The translations under genes and the position numbers were made by a program. This document shows, in pieces, positions 18,601 through 62,792 of a DNA stretch of 64,000 nt. The notes below the pieces were generated by a model. That model did no database searches, was not told the DNA's origin, and saw nothing but the letters and a program-made list of their open reading frames with translations. Positions within the stretch are counted from its first letter, which is position 1, and each line of letters opens with the position of its first letter. The stretch is from Stygiobacter sp. RIFOXYC2_FULL_38_25 (GTDB taxonomy: Bacteria; Bacteroidota; Ignavibacteria; Ignavibacteriales; Melioribacteraceae): NCBI GenBank assembly GCA_001803165.1, contig MHAZ01000017.1, positions 62,001-126,000 of the forward strand, in the 5' to 3' direction.

Positions 18601-20297
18601 CCAACAAATTTGGTATTGATATAACCGGCAATAACCCATTCCCGATTGCGGTAGGAATTTTAACAAGTGATGGTGCAAAAAATAATATTATTGAGGAAAA
18701 TGCTTTTGGAGAAATAACGAGTATAGCAATATTATTAACGGGGATAGATTGCAGTGAAAATTGGATACGATTCAATTCTATTGGAACGAATAAAAGCGGT
18801 TCCACCTCCTTCAATTTTAAATATGGAATTTCACTTTCCGATAAAGCTAATAGAAATTTAATCTTATTTAACACAATCGGTTCGTCTTCCTCAACAACAA
18901 AATCGAGAGCAATTATAATTGATTCCTTAGCTGAGAAAAATACGATTAGGGGAAATTATATCGGAACAAATAAAAACGGCTCGATAAAAATACCGAATTA
19001 CATAGGTGTTGATATTTATAGTAATAACAACAATATAATACAGAATAAGATTTGGTATAACTATGCAGGTATAGTTGCAGAAAATTGTAAAAATTATATA
19101 GCACATAATGATATCCGTTACAGTAAGCAGAATACCGGGATCCATTTAGTTAATTCTTCTTCGAACATTTTTGGAAATACAATTTCCTTTGATGAACAAG
19201 ATGGAATAAAGTGCGAGCAGGGTTCAAACCCAATAATTGTTGGGAATAATATTTTCTCTAACAAAGGATTTGCCCTCAATAATGCCGATCCAAATGTTAA
19301 GATTAATGCCCTAGGCAACTATTGGGGCACTGCATCAGGTCCAGGTGCTTCAATTAATGGAAATATTAACGCATCCTCTTGGCTTAATTCTGAAAATAAA
19401 TTAATCCTATCATCTGCACTCGATACTCTCTTTATACCGGAAAATGGAATTGATTCTCTTTCCTTCTTCTACACTAACTGGCTCAATTCAAACGATAAAC
19501 TGAACATCTCGATAACCTCAAATAAGGAGAACTGGATCACTTCTCAAAAATCTTTTATTGCTGATTTAAGTGCACCTAACTCAGGTGAAAGTAAAATTAA
19601 GTTTGTTTTGCCAGCCGGAACTGCAAAAGATGATAAATCTCAAGTGGTAATAAAGGCAGTTTCTCAGTCTAACTCTTCACTCACTGCAAGCGATACTGTA
19701 ACCGTGATGGTTTATCAGCGTAAGCTAAATTTTCTGGCAGTAAGACCGGATACTATTTCTTGCAGTCCGGGAGATACACTTTATTTTGGAATTGCTGGAT
19801 TCGATCAACATCGTAATGAAATGACAATAACAGATCCCATAACATGGAGCGCTAATGGAGGTTCAATTAATAATTCGGGAAGGTTCGTTGCCGGTTCATC
19901 TTCCGGAATATTTCATATTACAGCTACTGATATAAAAAACAACATCAAATCCATTTCTAAAGTTAAGATAGGAAATTCAACTACTTCAATTGAAGAAAAT
20001 AAAAATGAAGAACTGCCAGCTACCTATTCCCTATCCCAAAATTATCCCAATCCGTTTAATCCGGTAACAACAATCAAATATTCAATTCCTTCAAACGAGA
20101 AAGGGAAAACGGAAAACGTAATGTTAATAGTTTATGACATACTTGGAAGAGAAGTAGAAGTGTTAGTAAATCTAAAACAATCAGCCGGAAATTATGAAGT
20201 GAAGTTTGACGGATCAAAGATTGCGAGCGGAGTTTACTTTTACAAGCTTCAAAGCGGTTCGTTTGTGCAGACCAAGAAATTTATTTTACTAAAATAG
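15666..20297 (+). CDS. Large secreted protein: YCF48-like propeller, beta-helix, type IX tail
   Basis: 1543 residues with a signal peptide (ILLVVFYFIFSGNIIAQ) and ribosome site AAAGGAG. Rough domain order: residues 20-310 repeated TxDGGxTW/GWAAG units (YCF48/BNR propeller); 318-385 a divergent InlB-like repeat (WDKWSGSLSG ... VVANFQP); 390-520 unassigned beta-rich; 545-1290 a long right-handed parallel beta-helix with many NxIxxNxFG turns (NosD/PbH1-like); 1290-1450 Ig-like segments; last ~85 the linker SQNYPNPFNPVTTIKYS and type IX sorting domain ending QTKKFILLK. Probably a surface adhesin or polysaccharide-binding protein. AT-richer than its neighbours. Confidence 0.85.
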   Translation: MKTYIRTRILLVVFYFIFSGNIIAQYDDWRTIPTNGISEVKAVIEVDGEMYTIGIGFNKSTDGGETWQNVTNINNFYGGKDVWMTSKTNGIAIGYDEIFRTTDAWQTAARVENINSVKSIFMINENVGWAAGSFGYLYKTTDNGQSWILNRQDPNMFYNSFNSVSFNTPQTGHIVGENIYKTSIDGGNTWQMNTNVPDYGDFRNVYFFDANNGWIIGGNGLIFNTSNGGNIWQKQTSNTTNTLTSISFINSQVGYAVGENGTVMKTTNSGSTWITVNLNSTNHFRDVLTKSNGEVWIVGTHSQILTNKPAPQKINLTTSVFPVEAAADGCTITPSGTNQYDLNTNVSMDANAGTGWVWDKWSGSLSGSVKPQTLIMDADKNVVANFQPILNLALTSPPDENHCLPNENEEITIATAKIFVDGVDWQLTGITFSAVEKFKSDFTEAWIEYSGIKLKGTIATDSDGFIISIAFTPNQIIQEGTTLDVRLFFMLSFPSTSPDKYIPSALSTILKYKVSIHVGQVQCVPIPESAKPGVKTPVYPPTIFYSNILTIASIWNVSRNPYKPFSTIKEAIESNETQPDDLIRLCPGLYLESVAVDKPLTIFSSDGYERTIWQPDSQEKINTDKNILTIKKSNTKIFGISFMKGSKAISLDAGGQKLANIEIKENYFQDNTWGIFSTKTDSSYFFRNILCDYLTILNGVGNVCEKNSIQSDLHLISKSSNNTVKENIFGGDNAGLEIDSNSTENNIIGNTFGLKEDGNTEWAIKGDGIQLAGKLNIIENNIISNCMYGIILQSAKNNIVRGNIIGLNSDKTKVMKNMVGIFADKGGCSANIIENNIICGSREAAIKFAAQRYDDEINVENIIRNNIFGLSDTGIITEQLNLVGLILPNFCNHNLIEANTFGFNGVVAYISGNSNRISNNKFGTDISGSKQVASSIGVVLSGEENMISSNIFATYGIGLTLGVSKNAVDPVCRSNYIISNKFGIDITGNNPFPIAVGILTSDGAKNNIIEENAFGEITSIAILLTGIDCSENWIRFNSIGTNKSGSTSFNFKYGISLSDKANRNLILFNTIGSSSSTTKSRAIIIDSLAEKNTIRGNYIGTNKNGSIKIPNYIGVDIYSNNNNIIQNKIWYNYAGIVAENCKNYIAHNDIRYSKQNTGIHLVNSSSNIFGNTISFDEQDGIKCEQGSNPIIVGNNIFSNKGFALNNADPNVKINALGNYWGTASGPGASINGNINASSWLNSENKLILSSALDTLFIPENGIDSLSFFYTNWLNSNDKLNISITSNKENWITSQKSFIADLSAPNSGESKIKFVLPAGTAKDDKSQVVIKAVSQSNSSLTASDTVTVMVYQRKLNFLAVRPDTISCSPGDTLYFGIAGFDQHRNEMTITDPITWSANGGSINNSGRFVAGSSSGIFHITATDIKNNIKSISKVKIGNSTTSIEENKNEELPATYSLSQNYPNPFNPVTTIKYSIPSNEKGKTENVMLIVYDILGREVEVLVNLKQSAGNYEVKFDGSKIASGVYFYKLQSGSFVQTKKFILLK

Positions 20298-41287: not shown

Positions 41288-43009
41288 TTATTTCATCAAA
41301 ACTAATTTCTTCGTTTCGGCTAAACTTCCGGCTTGTAATCTGTAGAAATAGACTCCGCTTTGTAAAGACGCGCCATGGCGCGTCTCTACATTAAATGTAG
41401 CTTTGTAAGTCCCAGAAGGTAGAAATTCATTTACAAGCATAGCAACTTCTCTTCCGAGTACATCGTAAACTTTTAAGCTTACGTTGCTGGCTTCTTGTAG
41501 CGTGTAGCTAATAGTTGTTTCCGGATTAAACGGATTGGGATAGTTTTGGTGCAATGAAAAATTTGCAGGCAAAGCAATGTCTAGTTCAGTATCATTTGAA
41601 TATTCAAATGCGCCATTGAAATCAATCTGCTTCAATCTGTATTTTATTTTTCCGTTCGGCGGAGTATTATCTGTAAATATATAATCTTTTGTGGAGTTAC
41701 TGTTACCGTGCCCTTGTACGAAACCAATTTTTTCCCATTTGTCTTTCTGAGCAAAGCGAAGAATCTCAAAACCGTAATTGTTCACTTCTGTTTCTGTGGA
41801 CCAAATTAAAACTACTTTTCCTCTAACAACGCTAGCAGAAAAGGAAGTTAGCTCTACGGGAAGAGGGGCGTCATCTGCCCAATATTCATAAGCCCCAATA
41901 TCAGTAGCTCCGTTTCTTTCAGCGGCACGCTGGTCCTGTGTGGGAATGGATACTCCATTGTTAGTTCCGCTATTCGAACCAGCATTAATGGCAATGCTAC
42001 CGCTTGTCGTTTTGAGTGTGTATGTTCCATTAGTTGTGTTGTTGGCTTCAAGAGTTGAACTTAGATTTAAGCTAGCTTGCTCTCCGGTAATATCATGTGT
42101 TGCGCTAAAAGTATATCCAGAGCAAATTTCGGCTATATTATAATCATTGTCATTAACTGTACCGCTGTTAGTAAAATCATTTGCCGTACCGCCTGAGATA
42201 GTGTTATTGGCAATGATTGTATTTTTTATATAGAGGGTTCCGGTATTATGAACTCCACCGCCAGTATAGCTAGCTCCACAAGTATTATTGGCTATTGTAC
42301 AATTTGTTAAAGTGTTAGTGCCTCCAGATAAATAAAGCCCCCCTCCTTTTTGAGTCGCATTGTTTCCGCTTATTGTGCAGTTGGTTAGCGTTAATGATGT
42401 GCCATAGCTTAAAATGCCGCCTCCACCCCACGAATCATAATATGATACATTCCCACTAATGGTACAATTTATTGCTGTTAGGGTGTTCGTATTAACAATT
42501 CCTCCCCCATACCCTCCAGAATAGTTATCAACTATATCACAATTGCTTAGAATTAGATTACTCTCATTTCTGATTCCACCTCCTTCTCCGCCGTCATTTC
42601 CATAACGAATTGTCAAATCTTTAATCGAAACATTCCCACCAGAAGCCCCAATCCAAAATACAATAGCTGCAGCCGTACCTTTAGATGAGGCAGCCTGAAC
42701 TATTGTGGTTCCTGCACCCGCACCTTTAACTGTTAGGTTCGTGAAATTTCTTGTAGAAATATTAATGACATCATTGTTTAAGGTGTAAGTGTTGCCTGAA
42801 ACGTGAATGAGGATTTCTGCAGTTGTTGGATTATCTACATTATTAACAGCAAATTCGATTGTTTTCCATGCATTAGTTCCCGAGCTGTGTCCATGGCTTC
42901 CGTCATAAATATCTGTACCAGCAGGGTCAACATAATAATTGATTTGTGCCATTGTGTTTACAGTAAGTAAAAAAGCAAAAACAAAAGTTATCAAAAAGAG
43001 CCTCTTCAT
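41288..43009 (-). CDS. Secreted parallel beta-helix protein with type IX tail
   Basis: 573 residues from the ATG at 43009 (ribosome site AAGAGG, then signal peptide RLFLITFVFAFLLTVNTMAQ). The longer frame to 43072 adds a non-signal sequence and is rejected. Repeats of the type LTNCTISGN and GGGIxNxGT from about residue 130 to 290 form a right-handed beta-helix of the polymorphic membrane protein/pectate-lyase kind. It ends QRAAERNGATDIGAYE, a common closing phrase. The linker LHQNYPNPFNPETTISY leads to the sorting domain. A palindromic DNA element is inserted in frame within that domain (41361-41390). Confidence 0.85.
   Translation of the reverse strand: MKRLFLITFVFAFLLTVNTMAQINYYVDPAGTDIYDGSHGHSSGTNAWKTIEFAVNNVDNPTTAEILIHVSGNTYTLNNDVINISTRNFTNLTVKGAGAGTTIVQAASSKGTAAAIVFWIGASGGNVSIKDLTIRYGNDGGEGGGIRNESNLILSNCDIVDNYSGGYGGGIVNTNTLTAINCTISGNVSYYDSWGGGGILSYGTSLTLTNCTISGNNATQKGGGLYLSGGTNTLTNCTIANNTCGASYTGGGVHNTGTLYIKNTIIANNTISGGTANDFTNSGTVNDNDYNIAEICSGYTFSATHDITGEQASLNLSSTLEANNTTNGTYTLKTTSGSIAINAGSNSGTNNGVSIPTQDQRAAERNGATDIGAYEYWADDAPLPVELTSFSASVVRGKVVLIWSTETEVNNYGFEILRFAQKDKWEKIGFVQGHGNSNSTKDYIFTDNTPPNGKIKYRLKQIDFNGAFEYSNDTELDIALPANFSLHQNYPNPFNPETTISYTLQEASNVSLKVYDVLGREVAMLVNEFLPSGTYKATFNVETRHGASLQSGVYFYRLQAGSLAETKKLVLMK
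41361..41390. repeat. In-frame palindromic element in the sorting domain, copy 1
   Basis: Core AGACGCGCCATGGCGCGTCT (41366-41385) is a perfect 20-base palindrome; with flanks TGTAA/CTACA the arms match at 14 of 15 pairs. In the gene it encodes V-E-T-R-H-G-A-S-L-Q between FN and SGVYFY of the type IX tail. Same family as the element at 45670-45697. Confidence 0.85.
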
Positions 43010-43529
43010 ATAACGCCTCTTAGCATTTGATTTTTTATTAAGAAATAAATTTCTCGCTTGATTGGGTAACAACCTGTTATGCGATCAATGGTAAATCGGC
43101 TTCCTGTTACAGCAGGAGATTTTCTTTAAGAGTGTACTTGCTCTGGATATGGATTACGATTTATATATAATCAATAAAAAGAATAGCTGTTATTGCGTTG
43201 TGCGGAATGAATGAAGATTTGGAGACTAACTTTATTTTGTTGCTCGAGAAAGCCACAGAAGATAAGTCCCTATTTGAACTGGGGTGAAACTACTAATAAA
43301 ATTATAGATGAGCAATAAGTCTAATTTAATTCAACTAAAACAAAAGTTCGGGAATGAAACTGTTCTCGCCTTATATGATTACTTTCGGAACTGTAATACC
43401 TCAAAAACCGATATAGCAATGAGCATAGATGTTCGCGGTATCGTCTCTAAAGGGGGATGTCGCGTAATTAATGAATCAAAAATATATCGGTGTAAATCTG
43501 TGCTGAGTGTACCGAAGCATTTGTTAAAT

Positions 43530-43554
43530 CCCCGCTTCGACTGCGAGGCGAGCG
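43530..43554. repeat. Dispersed hairpin, copy C
   Basis: CCCCGCTTCGACTGCGAGGC then GAGCG. Compared with copy B it lacks about 7 bases in the loop. Third member of the GC-rich family at 8956-8987 and 24394-24425. Confidence 0.55.
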
Positions 43555-43596
43555 CGTCATCTGCGGGCTATTTCTGATTAAATAGTTAATTATGCG

Positions 43597-43616
43597 AAAA
43601 TCCCTCACGGGATTTT
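43597..43616. terminator. Bidirectional terminator
   Basis: AAAATCCC-tcac-GGGATTTT, an 8-bp stem with a 4-base loop and T-run on one side, A-run on the other. It lies 25 bases beyond the stop of the minus-strand GH-A gene. Confidence 0.75.
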
Positions 43617-43640
43617 TAGCTCCGCTAGTCCGAAGCAATT

Positions 43641-45599
43641 TTATTTCATTAGAATAAGTTTCTTTGTAATACTAATCGAGCCGCTTTGAAGTCTGTAAAA
43701 ATAAATCCCGCTGGTCATTTCTCGACTGCGCTCGAAATGACGCGCGTTGAGTGTAACTTTATAATTGCCGGGCTGCTTAAACTCGTTTACAAGCGTTGCA
43801 ACTTCTCTCCCAAGTATATCATAAACTTTTAGGCTTACTTGGCTTGCCGCTAGTATCTTGTAGCTAATAGTAGTTTCCGGATTGAACGGATTGGGGCTGT
43901 TCTGAAATAATTCTATTCCCGGAATTGATTCACCAGTTCTGCTTTTGAAATCGTCAATGTGAGTAATTACATCGGTAGCCTTTATTGGATTAGCCCATGT
44001 GCCGTGCGTTAAAATTAGTTGAGTGAAAATTCTCTTAGCAAATTTCCCATGCCTAATTGTAAAACCAGCGCCGAATGTTGCTGCTTTAGTTCCCTTGGGA
44101 ATGTCGAAATTATCCGTAAATGGATAGTTGTTATCGAGCAGTGTAATTACTCTAGATTTTGCTGCTCCTTCATCAAAGCCAATGTGGGGATGAACTACGT
44201 AGTCAACTTTGTCACCTTCAATCGTAAACAATGAATCGTTTGTTATCTCTATTAGTAAATAATTCTTGCTGCCGGGGTTTAAGCTGGAAGGAACAAGCTG
44301 CATTTTGATTTCGGGAAGCTGCAACTGCTTCTTTGAGCAAAGAACAGAAATAGTTTCCGATTTAATCTCAACACCGCTTGCATCAAAGAAATGAAAAGTT
44401 AACTCTAAATCTTTTACTTGTTCTATGAGCTTGAGAGATAAATTTCCGCTAAAATAATTTGAGCTAACATTTTGAGTCAGAACAGTGCTATCATTCATTA
44501 CAATTGTAAATGAACGAACATCTTCAATTGTAAAAATCTCAACTGGGATTTGCTCACCGTAAATCTTTTCATTCTTGGGCTCGGTAATAATTGCTTTGTT
44601 GTATGTTGTGTAAGCAGACCATACCGGACGCGGGGAGCCAAACTTATCATTTTGATTTGCGAACTCGATTAATCCAAACCATTCCTCGGGAGTGGAATCG
44701 TGAACGAACTCATTTCCACCTTTCCACCAGCCGTCATGATATTGAAATACTACTCCGCCTTGAGCGCCGGCGTCAATCAAACTTCTGTACATTAATAAAT
44801 TGCCGCTGGTTTGCTGCGCTAAAGTATTTCCGCCGTAAGTATATTTTGTACCTGGAGTGCCCGGCGAAACCGAGAGTCCATATTCTGTAACGATAAATGG
44901 TTTTTGAGAAGCGCGGTTGTTTTTTAGAAAACTTAAATATCCGGCATAGCCATGTGAACCGCTTATTGTTACCGGATTGTAGATGTAAGCGTTGTATGCG
45001 GTGAAATCAAAAATATCTGTGCTTATGTAATCGCCTACAATTGTATTTGAAAAAGAAACCGGTATGCCGCTATGCCGTTGATGAATTAAATCTCTTACTG
45101 CTTGCCATAGGCTTACAAGATTCTCAGCGCCCGCGTTGTAGATATGAGCGACTTGCGGCTCATTCATTATTAGATAGCCAATAATGCATTTATACTTATT
45201 GGAGTAATTGAGAACTGCGTTTACTTGATTCAGCGCGGAAGTTCTAAATGACTGCGAGCCAAAATCTCCCGCTGGATCAATCCAAATACCGAACAAAATT
45301 TTTAAGCCGGATTCTTCAACTAATTTTAATTCTTCTTCTGTTATAGCGCCCCAAGTGCGGATTGTATTAAAGCCGGCGTTTTTAATTCTATCCAAATCAA
45401 ATTTAATCAGGTCAGCATCGAACTTGTAAACCCACGGCACTTGTGCCGGCCTGGTGTGTGTTTCGTAGCCGATGCCTTTTACAAAAAACTTTTTACCATC
45501 AATGTAATACCAGCCGTTAGCTATTTGGACATTCTGCGCCAGGCAGATTTTCAAAGTAAGAATTGTAAGCAGAAAAAATATTTTCCCGAAGCTTTTCAT
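43641..45599 (-). CDS. Secreted clan GH-A glycoside hydrolase with type IX tail
   Basis: 652 residues with signal peptide (KIFFLLTILTLKICLAQ). A TIM barrel of roughly residues 20-330: FVKGIGYETHTRP, NTIRTWGA, IIGYLIMNEPQ (acid/base Glu) and KPFIVTEYGLS (nucleophile Glu). This is the clan GH-A layout (GH2/GH5/GH72-like); exact family and substrate are not certain. A beta-sandwich follows, then FQNSPNPFNPETTISYK and the sorting domain ending ITKKLILMK. A palindromic element in frame encodes ARHFERSREMT in the sorting domain. Its start overlaps the M1 peptidase stop as ATGA. Confidence 0.82.
   Translation of the reverse strand: MKSFGKIFFLLTILTLKICLAQNVQIANGWYYIDGKKFFVKGIGYETHTRPAQVPWVYKFDADLIKFDLDRIKNAGFNTIRTWGAITEEELKLVEESGLKILFGIWIDPAGDFGSQSFRTSALNQVNAVLNYSNKYKCIIGYLIMNEPQVAHIYNAGAENLVSLWQAVRDLIHQRHSGIPVSFSNTIVGDYISTDIFDFTAYNAYIYNPVTISGSHGYAGYLSFLKNNRASQKPFIVTEYGLSVSPGTPGTKYTYGGNTLAQQTSGNLLMYRSLIDAGAQGGVVFQYHDGWWKGGNEFVHDSTPEEWFGLIEFANQNDKFGSPRPVWSAYTTYNKAIITEPKNEKIYGEQIPVEIFTIEDVRSFTIVMNDSTVLTQNVSSNYFSGNLSLKLIEQVKDLELTFHFFDASGVEIKSETISVLCSKKQLQLPEIKMQLVPSSLNPGSKNYLLIEITNDSLFTIEGDKVDYVVHPHIGFDEGAAKSRVITLLDNNYPFTDNFDIPKGTKAATFGAGFTIRHGKFAKRIFTQLILTHGTWANPIKATDVITHIDDFKSRTGESIPGIELFQNSPNPFNPETTISYKILAASQVSLKVYDILGREVATLVNEFKQPGNYKVTLNARHFERSREMTSGIYFYRLQSGSISITKKLILMK
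43714..43741. repeat. In-frame palindromic element in the sorting domain, copy 2
   Basis: GTCATTTCTCGA-ctgcgc-TCGAAATGAC, an imperfect inverted repeat with a short bulge, unrelated in sequence to the elements at 41361 and 45670. In the gene it encodes about R-H-F-E-R-S-R-E-M-T at the same position, between LNA and SGIYFY. Confidence 0.8.
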
Positions 45600-47605
45600 T
45601 TTGCCAGAATCATCTTCTTCGTCTCAACGTAAGAGCCAGTCTTTAAAGTATAGAAATAAACTCCACTTGGTAAAGGCGAGGCATGCCTCGTCTTTACATT
45701 AAATGTAACTTTATGAGTTCCAGCTTGCTGATATTCATTTACAAGCATTACAACTTCTCTCCCAAGAACATCATAAACTTTCAACGTTACATGGACTAAA
45801 GTCCCTCCTTTGGAGGGATTTAGGGAGGCTGGAATTCTGTACTCTATCGTTGTTTCGGGATTAAACGGATTGGGATAGTTTTGAGAAAGAGAAAATTTAG
45901 TCGGTATATTATCTCTATCCTCAATTTCAGTAGTTCCAACAACATCTTCGAGCAGCCAATTGTCCGGATCAATGGAAACCGATAACGGTTGTCCGCTGAT
46001 TGGAATAATCCAGCCCTGATCTTGCTGATCATTAAAGACACTACTAAAAATTGTTGATTTGTTTGTAGTGATTTTTATCTGAACCGGCATTGTGAAGAAT
46101 TGAGGGTTAGTATTTACGTTTTGCTTCAGACGGAAAGTTAGATGAAACAAATCGCCATTAATTTGTTTTGAGCTCCATCCAACAGTGTACTTTGGATAAT
46201 TCTCGCCGTAAATCCATTCCTTAAAAAAGTAATCCAAACTTTTACCGTAAACTCGTTCTGCAATTCGCTGGAAGTCTTCCGTTGTTGCAACATTGTAAGA
46301 AAGACCCGGCTCGCTGAGATATTCTTTCAGTATTCTAAAGAAGTTTTCATCGCCAACTACTCCGCGAAGCATATGCAATACAACGCCACCTTTGCTGTAT
46401 GATCTTGCGCCGTTAAAAATCTGTGCGATAGTTGAAATATCTTGTACATAAATAGAACCCTTCGCTGTTTTAGCCGAACTCATAATCGCATTTACATCGT
46501 TCGTGAACATGGAATTTCCATATTTAGCTTCGTAGTAAATGCTCTCGCTGTAAGTTGCAAAACCCTCATTCAGCCAAATGTTTTGCCAGTCTTTACATGT
46601 TACCCTATCCCCAAACCATTGATGAGCAAGTTCGTGCGCTACTACATCTTCCCGGAAAGTTGACATAGAAGAAACAGTTTGATGTTCCATGCTAACACTA
46701 TTCAAAACTTGAGCTTGTCCATATTTTTCGGCTACGAATGGATAGAGCCCAAATTTTTCCGAAAATATTTTTAGCATACCGGGTACTAAATCCAGATTTC
46801 CTTTGTTTGAGCTGAACAGTTCCGGAAACACATAATGAGTTACCGGCATAACTTTTCCGGTTTCATATTCAAATGGTGTGTCATATTTCTGATAGTTGCT
46901 CATCGCGAGCGAGATTAGATAATTTGCAATTGGATAGCGGTTCTTCCATTTATAAGTTGAAGTTCCATCCACATTATTAACAGTTTCTGTTAATACACCG
47001 TTGGAAATTGATGTGAATGATTTATCGGAAGTAATCCATACATCGGAAGAATCCGCTTTATCTGCTGGAGTGTCTTTGCTAGGCCACCACGATCTAGCAC
47101 CATAAGGCTCACTCAAAGTCCAAATTATTGGTTGTCCGGAGTGAGCTGTAAAAACAAAGTCTCCAAATCCGGCACTTTGCGGATAGCCGCTATACTTAAT
47201 TGTAACTGTAATTAAATCTCCTTTAGCGTACTCTTTTTCCAGATTTATCTTTAGTTGATTGCTGCTCTGGGAATAAGCCGCAGCAACATTGTTAGATGTA
47301 ACAGAAGTAACTGCCATAGTGCTTACAAGGTCGAGATAAAAGTTGGTTAGCTTATCAATTGAAGACCAAGCTTTAACAGTTACCTCGCCGGTTAGTAATT
47401 TACTATTGTAGTTGACGGAGAGATTTAGTTTATAATAGGTAACATCAATTTTGTCGTCGCCCGGATATGCAATTTTGCTAAGCCGGTTTGAGCTGTTGAA
47501 CGCTCTAATTTTTCCTTCGGAACAGTATTGAGAGGCGTCATCTTGAGCTAAGACATTTATTATAAAAATGAACAGGCAACTTGAAATCAATAGTATTCGT
47601 TTCAT
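45596..47605 (-). CDS. Secreted M1 family aminopeptidase with type IX tail
   Basis: 669 residues with signal peptide (ILLISSCLFIFIINVLAQ). M1 core: aminopeptidase N-like N-terminal beta domain, a SMEHQTVSS motif equivalent to GAMEN, zinc site HELAHQWFGD followed by NEGFATYSE (HExxH-18-E), and a catalytic Tyr region. It removes N-terminal residues from peptides outside the cell. The tail after SQNYPNPFNPETTIEYR carries two DNA elements: one in the linker encoding LNPSKGGTLV and one near the end encoding VKTRHASPLP. First gene of a two-gene operon with the GH-A enzyme. Confidence 0.9.
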   Translation of the reverse strand: MKRILLISSCLFIFIINVLAQDDASQYCSEGKIRAFNSSNRLSKIAYPGDDKIDVTYYKLNLSVNYNSKLLTGEVTVKAWSSIDKLTNFYLDLVSTMAVTSVTSNNVAAAYSQSSNQLKINLEKEYAKGDLITVTIKYSGYPQSAGFGDFVFTAHSGQPIIWTLSEPYGARSWWPSKDTPADKADSSDVWITSDKSFTSISNGVLTETVNNVDGTSTYKWKNRYPIANYLISLAMSNYQKYDTPFEYETGKVMPVTHYVFPELFSSNKGNLDLVPGMLKIFSEKFGLYPFVAEKYGQAQVLNSVSMEHQTVSSMSTFREDVVAHELAHQWFGDRVTCKDWQNIWLNEGFATYSESIYYEAKYGNSMFTNDVNAIMSSAKTAKGSIYVQDISTIAQIFNGARSYSKGGVVLHMLRGVVGDENFFRILKEYLSEPGLSYNVATTEDFQRIAERVYGKSLDYFFKEWIYGENYPKYTVGWSSKQINGDLFHLTFRLKQNVNTNPQFFTMPVQIKITTNKSTIFSSVFNDQQDQGWIIPISGQPLSVSIDPDNWLLEDVVGTTEIEDRDNIPTKFSLSQNYPNPFNPETTIEYRIPASLNPSKGGTLVHVTLKVYDVLGREVVMLVNEYQQAGTHKVTFNVKTRHASPLPSGVYFYTLKTGSYVETKKMILAK
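45670..45697. repeat. In-frame palindromic element in the sorting domain, copy 3
   Basis: GTAAAGGCGAGGCATGCCTCGTCTTTAC has arms matching at 13 of 14 pairs. It encodes V-K-T-R-H-A-S-P-L-P between FN and SGVYFY. It belongs to the same family as copy 1 (both GTArAGACGnG-cat-...), but its inner bases changed together on both arms. Confidence 0.85.
45796..45823. repeat. In-frame palindromic element in the tail linker
   Basis: CTAAAGTCCCTCC-ttt-GGAGGGATTTAG, a 12-bp stem with one bulged G. In the M1 gene it encodes about S-L-N-P-S-K-G-G-T-L-V between IPA and HVTLKVYDVLG, where the sister genes have only one or two residues. Confidence 0.8.
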
Positions 47606-62664: not shown

Positions 62665-62792
62665 GACCTCTGAATAATTAATTTAGTGTCACACTGAAGT
62701 CCGTCGGCTGACGGATCGAAGTGTGACAATTTAGTTTGTAGTGTCATGGTTCGACAAGCTCACCATGACTTAGACTTAATAATTCAGAGGTC
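62665..62792. mobile_element. MITE-like nested inverted-repeat element
   Basis: Terminal inverted repeats of 17 bases, GACCTCTGAATAATTAA (62665-62681) and its partner (62776-62792), match at 16 positions. Inside are two hairpins: TGTCACACT/AGTGTGACA (62687-62695, 62720-62728) with TCCGTC-ggct-GACGGA nested at 62700-62715, and GTCATGGT/ACCATGAC (62743-62750, 62762-62769). 128 bases, no ORF. The whole folds as a cruciform with two arms on an outer stem. No target duplication is clear. Confidence 0.7.

Follow-up and report, generated by a model that had tools for sequence, protein, structure and literature searches.

A stretch of 64,000 nucleotides from the genome of Stygiobacter sp. RIFOXYC2_FULL_38_25, to which we refer as the window (positions 62001-126000 of contig C17; the genome comprises 4.41 Mb in 22 contigs and is labelled G000), contains three consecutive minus-strand genes whose products end in a sorting domain, or tail, of the type IX secretion system (T9SS). 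In each of these tails a palindromic DNA element is read in frame as part of the protein (Table 1). We describe here the two main families of such elements, F1 and F2, and their distribution over the sorting tails of this genome and its relatives. We argue that F1 belongs to a known family of mobile repeats and has probably been passed from tail to tail.

The initial annotation had placed one palindrome in each of the three tails, at the same loop, and had described two of them as related and the third as unrelated. Their positions and reading frame were confirmed; the palindromes at 41362-41389 and 45670-45697 belong to F1 and the one at 43715-43740 to F2. The first extends to 30 bp when its terminal T and A are included. 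A large protein at 15.7 kb had been reported to lack an element at this loop, and its tail (t24, ending near 20.3 kb) indeed has a plain six-residue loop without a palindrome there. For the first of the three genes we chose the ATG at 43009, which precedes a signal-peptide-like stretch, as the start codon; the open reading frame (ORF) listing has a TTG start at 43072. The enzyme part of the second gene product had no match to any family.

Table 1. Genes, sorting tails and palindromic elements in the window
Feature	Position	Strand	Remarks
Secreted protein gene	41288..43009	-	Choice-of-anchor Q domain, T9SS type A sorting tail
T9SS sorting tail t45	41291..41542	-	PF18962 / TIGR04183
F1 double-foot palindrome GTAGAGACG-CGCCATGGCG-CGTCTTTAC (minus-strand reading)	41362..41389	.	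t45 loop B, codes VETRHGASL
Secreted protein gene with T9SS tail	43641..45599	-	Glycosidase-like by eye only
T9SS sorting tail t89	43644..43895	-	Domain search
F2 palindrome TCATTTCGAGCGCAGTCGAGAAATGA	43715..43740	-	t89 loop B, codes RHFERSREM
M1-like aminopeptidase gene with T9SS tail	45596..47605	-	Aminopeptidase models E 7e-28, below their equivalog cut-offs
T9SS sorting tail t87 (M1-like aminopeptidase)	45599..45877	-	Domain search and AlphaFold2 model
F1 palindrome GTAAAGACG-AGGCATGCCT-CGCCTTTAC (minus-strand reading)	45670..45697	.	t87 loop B, codes VKTRHASPL
Third-family palindrome AAATCCCTCCAAAGGAGGGACTT (minus-strand reading)	45799..45821	.	t87 loop A, codes LNPSKGGTL; missed in the initial annotation
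T9SS tail t24 of large protein	20043..20285	+	Loop B short (DGSKIA), loop A lengthened (SNEKGKTEN)

Palindromes in the sorting tails of the genome

The window genome contains 146 T9SS sorting tails (Pfam PF18962). Alignment, tree and palindrome counts refer to 140 of these, with t100, t102, t141, t142, t143 and t145 excluded as partial or very divergent. We call the loop between strands s2 and s3 loop A, the one between s5 and s6, which lies between the FN and SGVYFY motifs, loop B, and the turn between s6 and s7 loop C. Loop B carries F1 or F2 in 48 of the 140 tails and is plain and short in 62. F1, called with up to three mismatches, accounts for 30 of the 48 and F2, called with up to six, for 18, including decayed copies in t40 and t132. 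All F1 copies in loop B share one reading frame, and F2 has the same orientation in 17 tails and is reversed in t124, where it still reads through. Loop A also hosts further palindromes with GTAG feet and an NPSKGG element. Repeated palindromes of a mobile type are thus read in frame, as the initial annotation had proposed.

Irrespective of family, palindromes with nine-base perfect arms and at most six bases between them (strict setting) occurred 24 times in loop B, eight times in loop A, once in the core and never in loop C, against a total of 2.0 on average, and 5 at most, in codon-shuffled tails. Arms of twelve bases with one mismatch yielded 26, 7, 2 and 0 palindromes in the same regions (1.45 after codon shuffling). 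The loosest setting, ten-base arms with one mismatch, at which chance palindromes are frequent, yielded 33, 18, 5 and 0 (15.05 after shuffling, maximum 23).

F1 follows the pattern GTARAGACG-N10-CGTCTYTAC, with a variable and mostly self-complementary ten-base centre (CCATATATGG, CGCCATGGCG, TTGCATGCAA and AGGCATGCCT, among others); F2 has the sequence TCATYTCGAGCGNAGYCGAGARATGA. Genome-wide there are 52 copies of F1 and 36 of F2, with no match to the backward-pattern control of either, and a dinucleotide-shuffled window gave no match to the two patterns tried. Among the 50 F1 copies listed, loop B accounts for 30 and loop A for two, which makes 32 in tails. Among the other 18, 14 are in DNA without an ORF of at least 80 residues and one lies in frame inside a transposase-like gene discussed below; of the last three, one is close to the end of an ORF of 211 residues, one is in a questionable ORF of 92 residues and one overlaps an ORF start. 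Seventeen F2 copies are in tails (16 by position and one, at C11:46251, by sequence, outside the 146) and 19 elsewhere, mostly between genes.

The initial annotation had suggested a comparison with intergenic copies. Per unit of DNA, loops A and B exceed non-coding DNA in their content of F1 about 128-fold and of F2 about 60-fold. The non-coding share is extrapolated from the window (88.7% coding), and of the copies outside tails, 15 of 18 for F1 and 17 of 19 for F2 are counted as non-coding. Purging of harmful insertions alone would leave the loops no denser than non-coding DNA; some process must therefore enrich or amplify the elements in them.

Identity of F1 and F2

In its features, F1 matches the published double-foot repetitive extragenic palindromes (REPs) of subclass 2.4 of the REP-associated tyrosine transposases (RAYT/TnpAREP), its closest known relatives. 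These REPs flank the transposase gene and also sit in frame inside it, between the HuH and Y motifs (PMC6006769; from this paper, as from PMC3733652, PMC4804311 and PMC11285876, we draw on excerpts). The expected feet, GT[AG]G and C[TC]AC, are largely present: GTAG or CTAC occurs at one or both ends in 41 of the 50 listed copies of F1, and the other nine have GTAA/TTAC or decayed feet. The window genome has several Y1/RAYT-like genes, one of which (L157) carries F1 in frame directly after its HuH motif. Compared with TnpAREP of known structure (PDB 4ER8), L157 gave a sequence E-value of 0.0011 (best stretch 0.051).

This arrangement recurs. In a survey of 30 RAYT loci, one per genome (L231 being the window's own), 28 were readable (all except L243 and L255), and in 25 of these a palindrome lies inside the gene just past the HuH motif; L250, L256 and L257 have none at that place. 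By our own reading, 21 of the 25 palindromes have GTA..TAC feet, and the same type often adjoins the gene. Across 116 genomes, F1 and such a RAYT occurred together in 40, F1 alone in 14, the RAYT alone in 21 and neither in 41 (Fisher p = 1.7e-5, uncorrected for kinship). Since subclass 2.4 is described in just this way in the excerpts of PMC6006769, neither what F1 is nor its occurrence within RAYT genes is new. F1 does not show the target-site duplication of a miniature inverted-repeat transposable element (MITE), none being found at the 18 non-tail copies.

F2 resembles the REPs tagged with CGTC or TGTC. Its termini in tails are CGTC in 12 copies, GGTC in four and AGTC in one (n = 17), and elsewhere AGTC in 11, TGTC in seven and GGTC in one (n = 19). 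CGTC REPs occur in Chlorobi and Bacteroidetes, and TGTC variants are known (PMC3733652). An inverted repeat with TGTC feet at window positions 62687-62728 resembles sequences adjoining several intergenic F2 copies.

Structure and tolerance of the loops

An AlphaFold2 model of t87 (mean pLDDT 80.3, 26 sequences) has strands at residues 25-32, 45-52, 58-67, 70-77, 89-97 and 100-108, with loop A at residues 33-44 and loop B at 78-88; by these modelled positions, the inserts would fill the s2-s3 and s5-s6 loops. The t87 sequence had no match in PDB up to E 1. A fold search yielded nothing at E 0.001 or better; its best matches were general Ig-like domains, and the T9SS tails 8glk, 7pq4, 8qb1 and 5m11 ranked lower (E 4e-3 to 1.5e-2), so the T9SS-tail fold is only weakly supported by this route.

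The C-terminal domain (CTD) of RgpB is a seven-stranded Ig-like sandwich in which s2-s3 and s5-s6 are crossover loops, located away from the s6-s7 hairpin that has been proposed as the main export signal (PMC4804311). A comparison of six CTDs showed that the s3-s4 loop is required for function and that the other loops vary in length; further, export, cleavage and anchoring of RgpB stayed normal when its s5-s6 (β5-β6) loop had 11 residues in place of three (PMC11285876). Nine tails of the window genome (t111, t118, t121, t125, t126, t128, t138, t139, t144) have a natural long loop of similar length without a palindrome. Together, the crossover position, the RgpB graft and the natural long loops explain why insertions are tolerated. 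The initial annotation had regarded the loop as a tolerated or preferred landing site. Tolerance holds, but a single preferred loop does not, since the insertions are mainly in s5-s6 in the window genome and in s2-s3 in G042, a genome from another family of the order.

In eight tails (t10, t14, t20, t32, t38, t59, t68, t88), the form of F1 with an LHA centre also replaces codons of strand s5, so that the length of the domain hardly changes and part of the strand is encoded by the element; the downstream junction is unchanged in all eight.

Elements in related genomes

Tail hosting recurs among relatives, in either loop and unevenly, and is not general. Of 31 F1 copies taken from the first listed locus in 30 genomes, 11 are in tails (six in loop B, five in loop A), one is in a different loop of a T9SS-type protein, four are in RAYT genes and 15 are intergenic by script. 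Inspection of the rows that the script had labelled as other ORFs supplied five of the tails, one of the RAYT genes and the T9SS-type protein. Tails held two of five sampled copies in G060 and one of five in G091.

In G042 (88% complete, 8% contamination), the reading covered every F1-pattern copy. Here 25 of the 28 are in tail DNA, 24 of them in frame: 23 in loop A by script and L348 in loop A by inspection, while L365 has a stop codon inside the element. The three non-tail copies are in RAYT genes (two) or beside one. All 13 copies with the commonest centre (the TCATATATGA set) are in tails. Their flanks are alike, at 0.775 upstream and 0.874 downstream, where the remaining copies reach 0.473 and 0.562; this fits a spread of the element together with its tail.

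The initial annotation had raised the possibility that the inserted segments might prove conserved in length and sequence in distant orthologues without palindromes. Orthologues of the M1 peptidase (46 distinct tails at 61 loci) do not show such conservation: their loops A and B vary and many are short, and the tails have either no elements or different ones. GC-rich palindromes, picked by eye, are present in L174, L184, L186, L267, L289 and L291; a loose palindrome setting yields many AT-rich chance matches in this set.

Origin and spread of the elements

We consider it probable that F1 is a double-foot REP of subclass 2.4 which was seeded into tail loops by a RAYT and then copied between tails. 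In a first step, a RAYT would process a single-stranded hairpin and occasionally seed a copy into a tail loop, where in-frame insertions would survive because the s2-s3 and s5-s6 crossover loops of the Ig-like β-sandwich are extensible. In a second step, to which the distribution of the elements points and whose mechanism we infer, recombination would copy the element from one tail to others, there being some 150 related tails in the genome. This copying may sometimes carry flanks along, as in G042, and sometimes leave nearly no flank trace, as in the window genome. The same loops have also taken up F2 and several other palindromes, and the outcome is new peptides of 9-10 residues in an exported domain, most simply viewed as tolerated rather than selected.

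Subfamilies that are restricted to tails, and the shared types of neighbouring tails, would be accounted for if a RAYT had seeded a few copies and the tails had then exchanged them, with no single preferred landing site. F1 centres encoding RHG or LHA were found in 16 of 32 tail copies and in none of 18 others (p = 1.3e-4), and the C-variant of F2 (TCATCTC or TCACCTC) in 14 of 17 tail copies and one of 19 elsewhere (p = 3e-6). Of 17 pairs of neighbouring element-bearing tails, eight agreed in type, where 4.3 would be expected (p = 0.049). All three groupings were picked post hoc. Judged by their sequences, the elements look younger than their host tails, being nearly identical in flanks whose DNA identity is 0.690 for F1PYM pairs and 0.678 for F1PYM-F2 pairs.

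An alternative, which we regard as unlikely, though less so than those that follow, is that the transposase favours the loop DNA and has struck every tail independently. It would explain why both loop-B boundaries are base-identical in 22 of 30 diverged F1 tails, and the downstream boundary in all 30, which random landing does not predict. It would also suit the loop-masked tail tree, which requires at least 15 changes between F1 and F2 among the 48 tails with an element and, among 27, 11 changes of subfamily, and on which F2 is not clustered (16, compared to 17.1 in shuffled labels). However, independent strikes leave the tail-restricted subfamilies unexplained, the favoured loop differs between G000 and G042, the 18 non-tail F1 copies have no common flank by eye, and in G042 the flanks accompany the commonest element.

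Somewhat less probable still is that elements of ancestral tails were multiplied by gene duplication alone, with no later exchange. Bearing tails are more alike (DNA identity about 0.68 with loops masked) than tails without elements (0.558), F1 is clustered on the tree (18, compared to 27.3 shuffled), and both the similar flanks of the TCATATATGA set in G042 and the excess of same-type neighbours could result from duplication. In the window genome, this explanation is weakened by the near-identity of elements whose flanks are only about 70% alike, by same-type pairs that are hardly more alike than different-type pairs, and by the close neighbours t115, t123 and t124, which carry F1, F2 and reversed F2, respectively.

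We give slightly less weight again to selection for the peptide or for a hairpin in the mRNA, by which inserts would be kept for export, sortase handling or stability of the mRNA 3' end. The very high density in the loops relative to non-coding DNA could be read in this way, as could the fact that an insert of 9-10 residues brings the loop to the length seen in the nine natural long-loop tails. Yet peptides without any relation to each other are accommodated, as are F2 in either orientation and insertions in several loops; 62 of the 140 aligned tails have the plain short loop; and in the excerpts of PMC11285876 the loop grafted into RgpB had no effect. Moreover, non-tail F1 copies of the same subfamily are identical in sequence, so this identity does not stem from selection on the protein.

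Finally, chance, a codon-usage artefact or ordinary loop-length variation, for which the natural long loops without palindromes might be cited, is refuted by the codon-shuffled tails (about two strict palindromes, compared to 33 observed) and by the lack of control matches to the exact repeated palindromes.

Several observations weigh against seeding by a RAYT with subsequent copying between tails. The tail tree is poorly resolved, with 82 of 137 inner branches open, and the identical loop boundaries described above are not what random landing would give. Downstream identity near the element is no higher in same-type pairs (0.740) than in different-type pairs (0.742), so conversion tracts are not seen in the window genome; this comparison uses the downstream side, the upstream half of the F1-F2 comparison being out of frame register. 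On the side of the transposase, the movement of the elements by a RAYT is itself inferred. L157 scores 58.8 bits against the NCBIfam RAYT model NF047646, below the curated cut-off of 80; 14 of the 54 F1-bearing genomes have no such RAYT; no direct duplication of 2-8 bases borders any of the 18 non-tail F1 copies on both sides; and we found no fixed insertion target for F1. Among the relatives, only four of the 29 F1 copies read in G093 (of 32) are in tails, the others being intergenic by script, and this genome had no RAYT match at E 1e-15; in G005, none of seven sampled copies is in a tail.

In parts of the order, a REP family may even have made the sorting tail its chief place of residence, persisting and multiplying as a coding cassette handed from tail to tail, a proposal that we make tentatively and hold to be nearly as likely to be right as wrong. 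If it is true, a palindrome called extragenic has most of its copies within genes and continues to remodel the loops of an export domain.

Relation to known palindromic elements

Rickettsia palindromic elements are palindromes found in frame within functional proteins, and the initial annotation had named them as a known analogue. F1 is nearer to the double-foot REPs and is set apart from the Rickettsia elements by description, having GTAG feet, a RAYT partner and hosts among the Ignavibacteria. Two of the Rickettsia elements, RPE-4 and RPE-6, have been filed as CGTC REPs (PMC3733652).

The double-foot REPs described in 2018 (PMC6006769) share with F1 the palindrome, the GT[AG]G...C[TC]AC feet, the location beside and in frame within the transposase gene, and hosts among the Bacteroidetes. 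They differ in that the in-gene copies described are the transposase's own; T9SS tails are unmentioned in the excerpts of this paper, and a word search of its text did not find Ignavibacter. Intragenic GTAG and CGTC REPs, described in 2013 (PMC3733652), are similar in lying inside many genes, for which loops and linkers were suggested to be tolerant, and differ in that their host genes are varied, uvrA and uvrB among them; neither T9SS nor secreted occurs as a word in that paper. The excerpts on T9SS CTDs describe no palindromic insertion (the string palindrom is absent from PMC11285876), and the single occurrence of this string in the Melioribacter genome paper (PMC3534657) is a reference to CRISPR. 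In the open-licence literature, covered by titles, abstract openings and term counts, we found no REPs or palindromes in T9SS sorting domains. REPs inside genes are thus known, and it is their concentration in T9SS tails that did not appear in our literature searches.

The usual view of REPs is that they are extragenic and that the copies inside genes are scattered. A family living mainly in one exported domain would offer a natural and countable system in which mobile repeats turn into protein sequence, and one that bears on their spread between paralogues and on the insertion tolerance of a secretion signal. Annotation may also be affected, through lower domain scores of insert-bearing tails and assembly breaks at tails. 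By eye, insert-bearing tails tend toward lower scores in domain searches. Contigs C3, C4, C5, C8, C12, C13, C17 and C21 of G000 each have a sorting tail no more than a few hundred bases from their start, and from these starts, again by eye, the assembly seems broken at the repeated tails.

Further inserts, palindromes and transposase genes

In a similar region of a T9SS-type protein outside the sorting tail (FEIQR...WExxGFxxGxG, fibronectin-like by eye), F2 is found in frame in one genome and F1 in another (L059, 4335-5729, minus strand; L207, 1501). Repeat-like inserts are also seen in loop C, namely DPSLRSGHG and variants in t70, t109, t110, t133, t137 and t140, and LPTGRQAG in L191. A class of eight-residue loops (NSQFSIRNSQLSSG and similar, 15 tails) was considered as a further element family and rejected, its DNA being insufficiently palindromic.

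The IS200-type transposase gene L154 has palindromes TATAGCCCC..GGGGCTATA on both sides (1366-1395 and 1925-1954), with differing inner stems. A second type of RAYT (L155/L324, G000:C4:110925-111470; L325-L346) occurs in 15 of the 116 genomes. Double-foot palindromes of the form [ACT]GTC...GAC[AGT] flank it on both sides in eight (L324, L325, L326, L328, L329, L330, L339, L341) of the 17 readable loci among 23, two of the 17 representing the same place. Since CGTC REPs seem to have no dedicated transposase according to the excerpts of PMC3733652, this second type is a candidate for that role.

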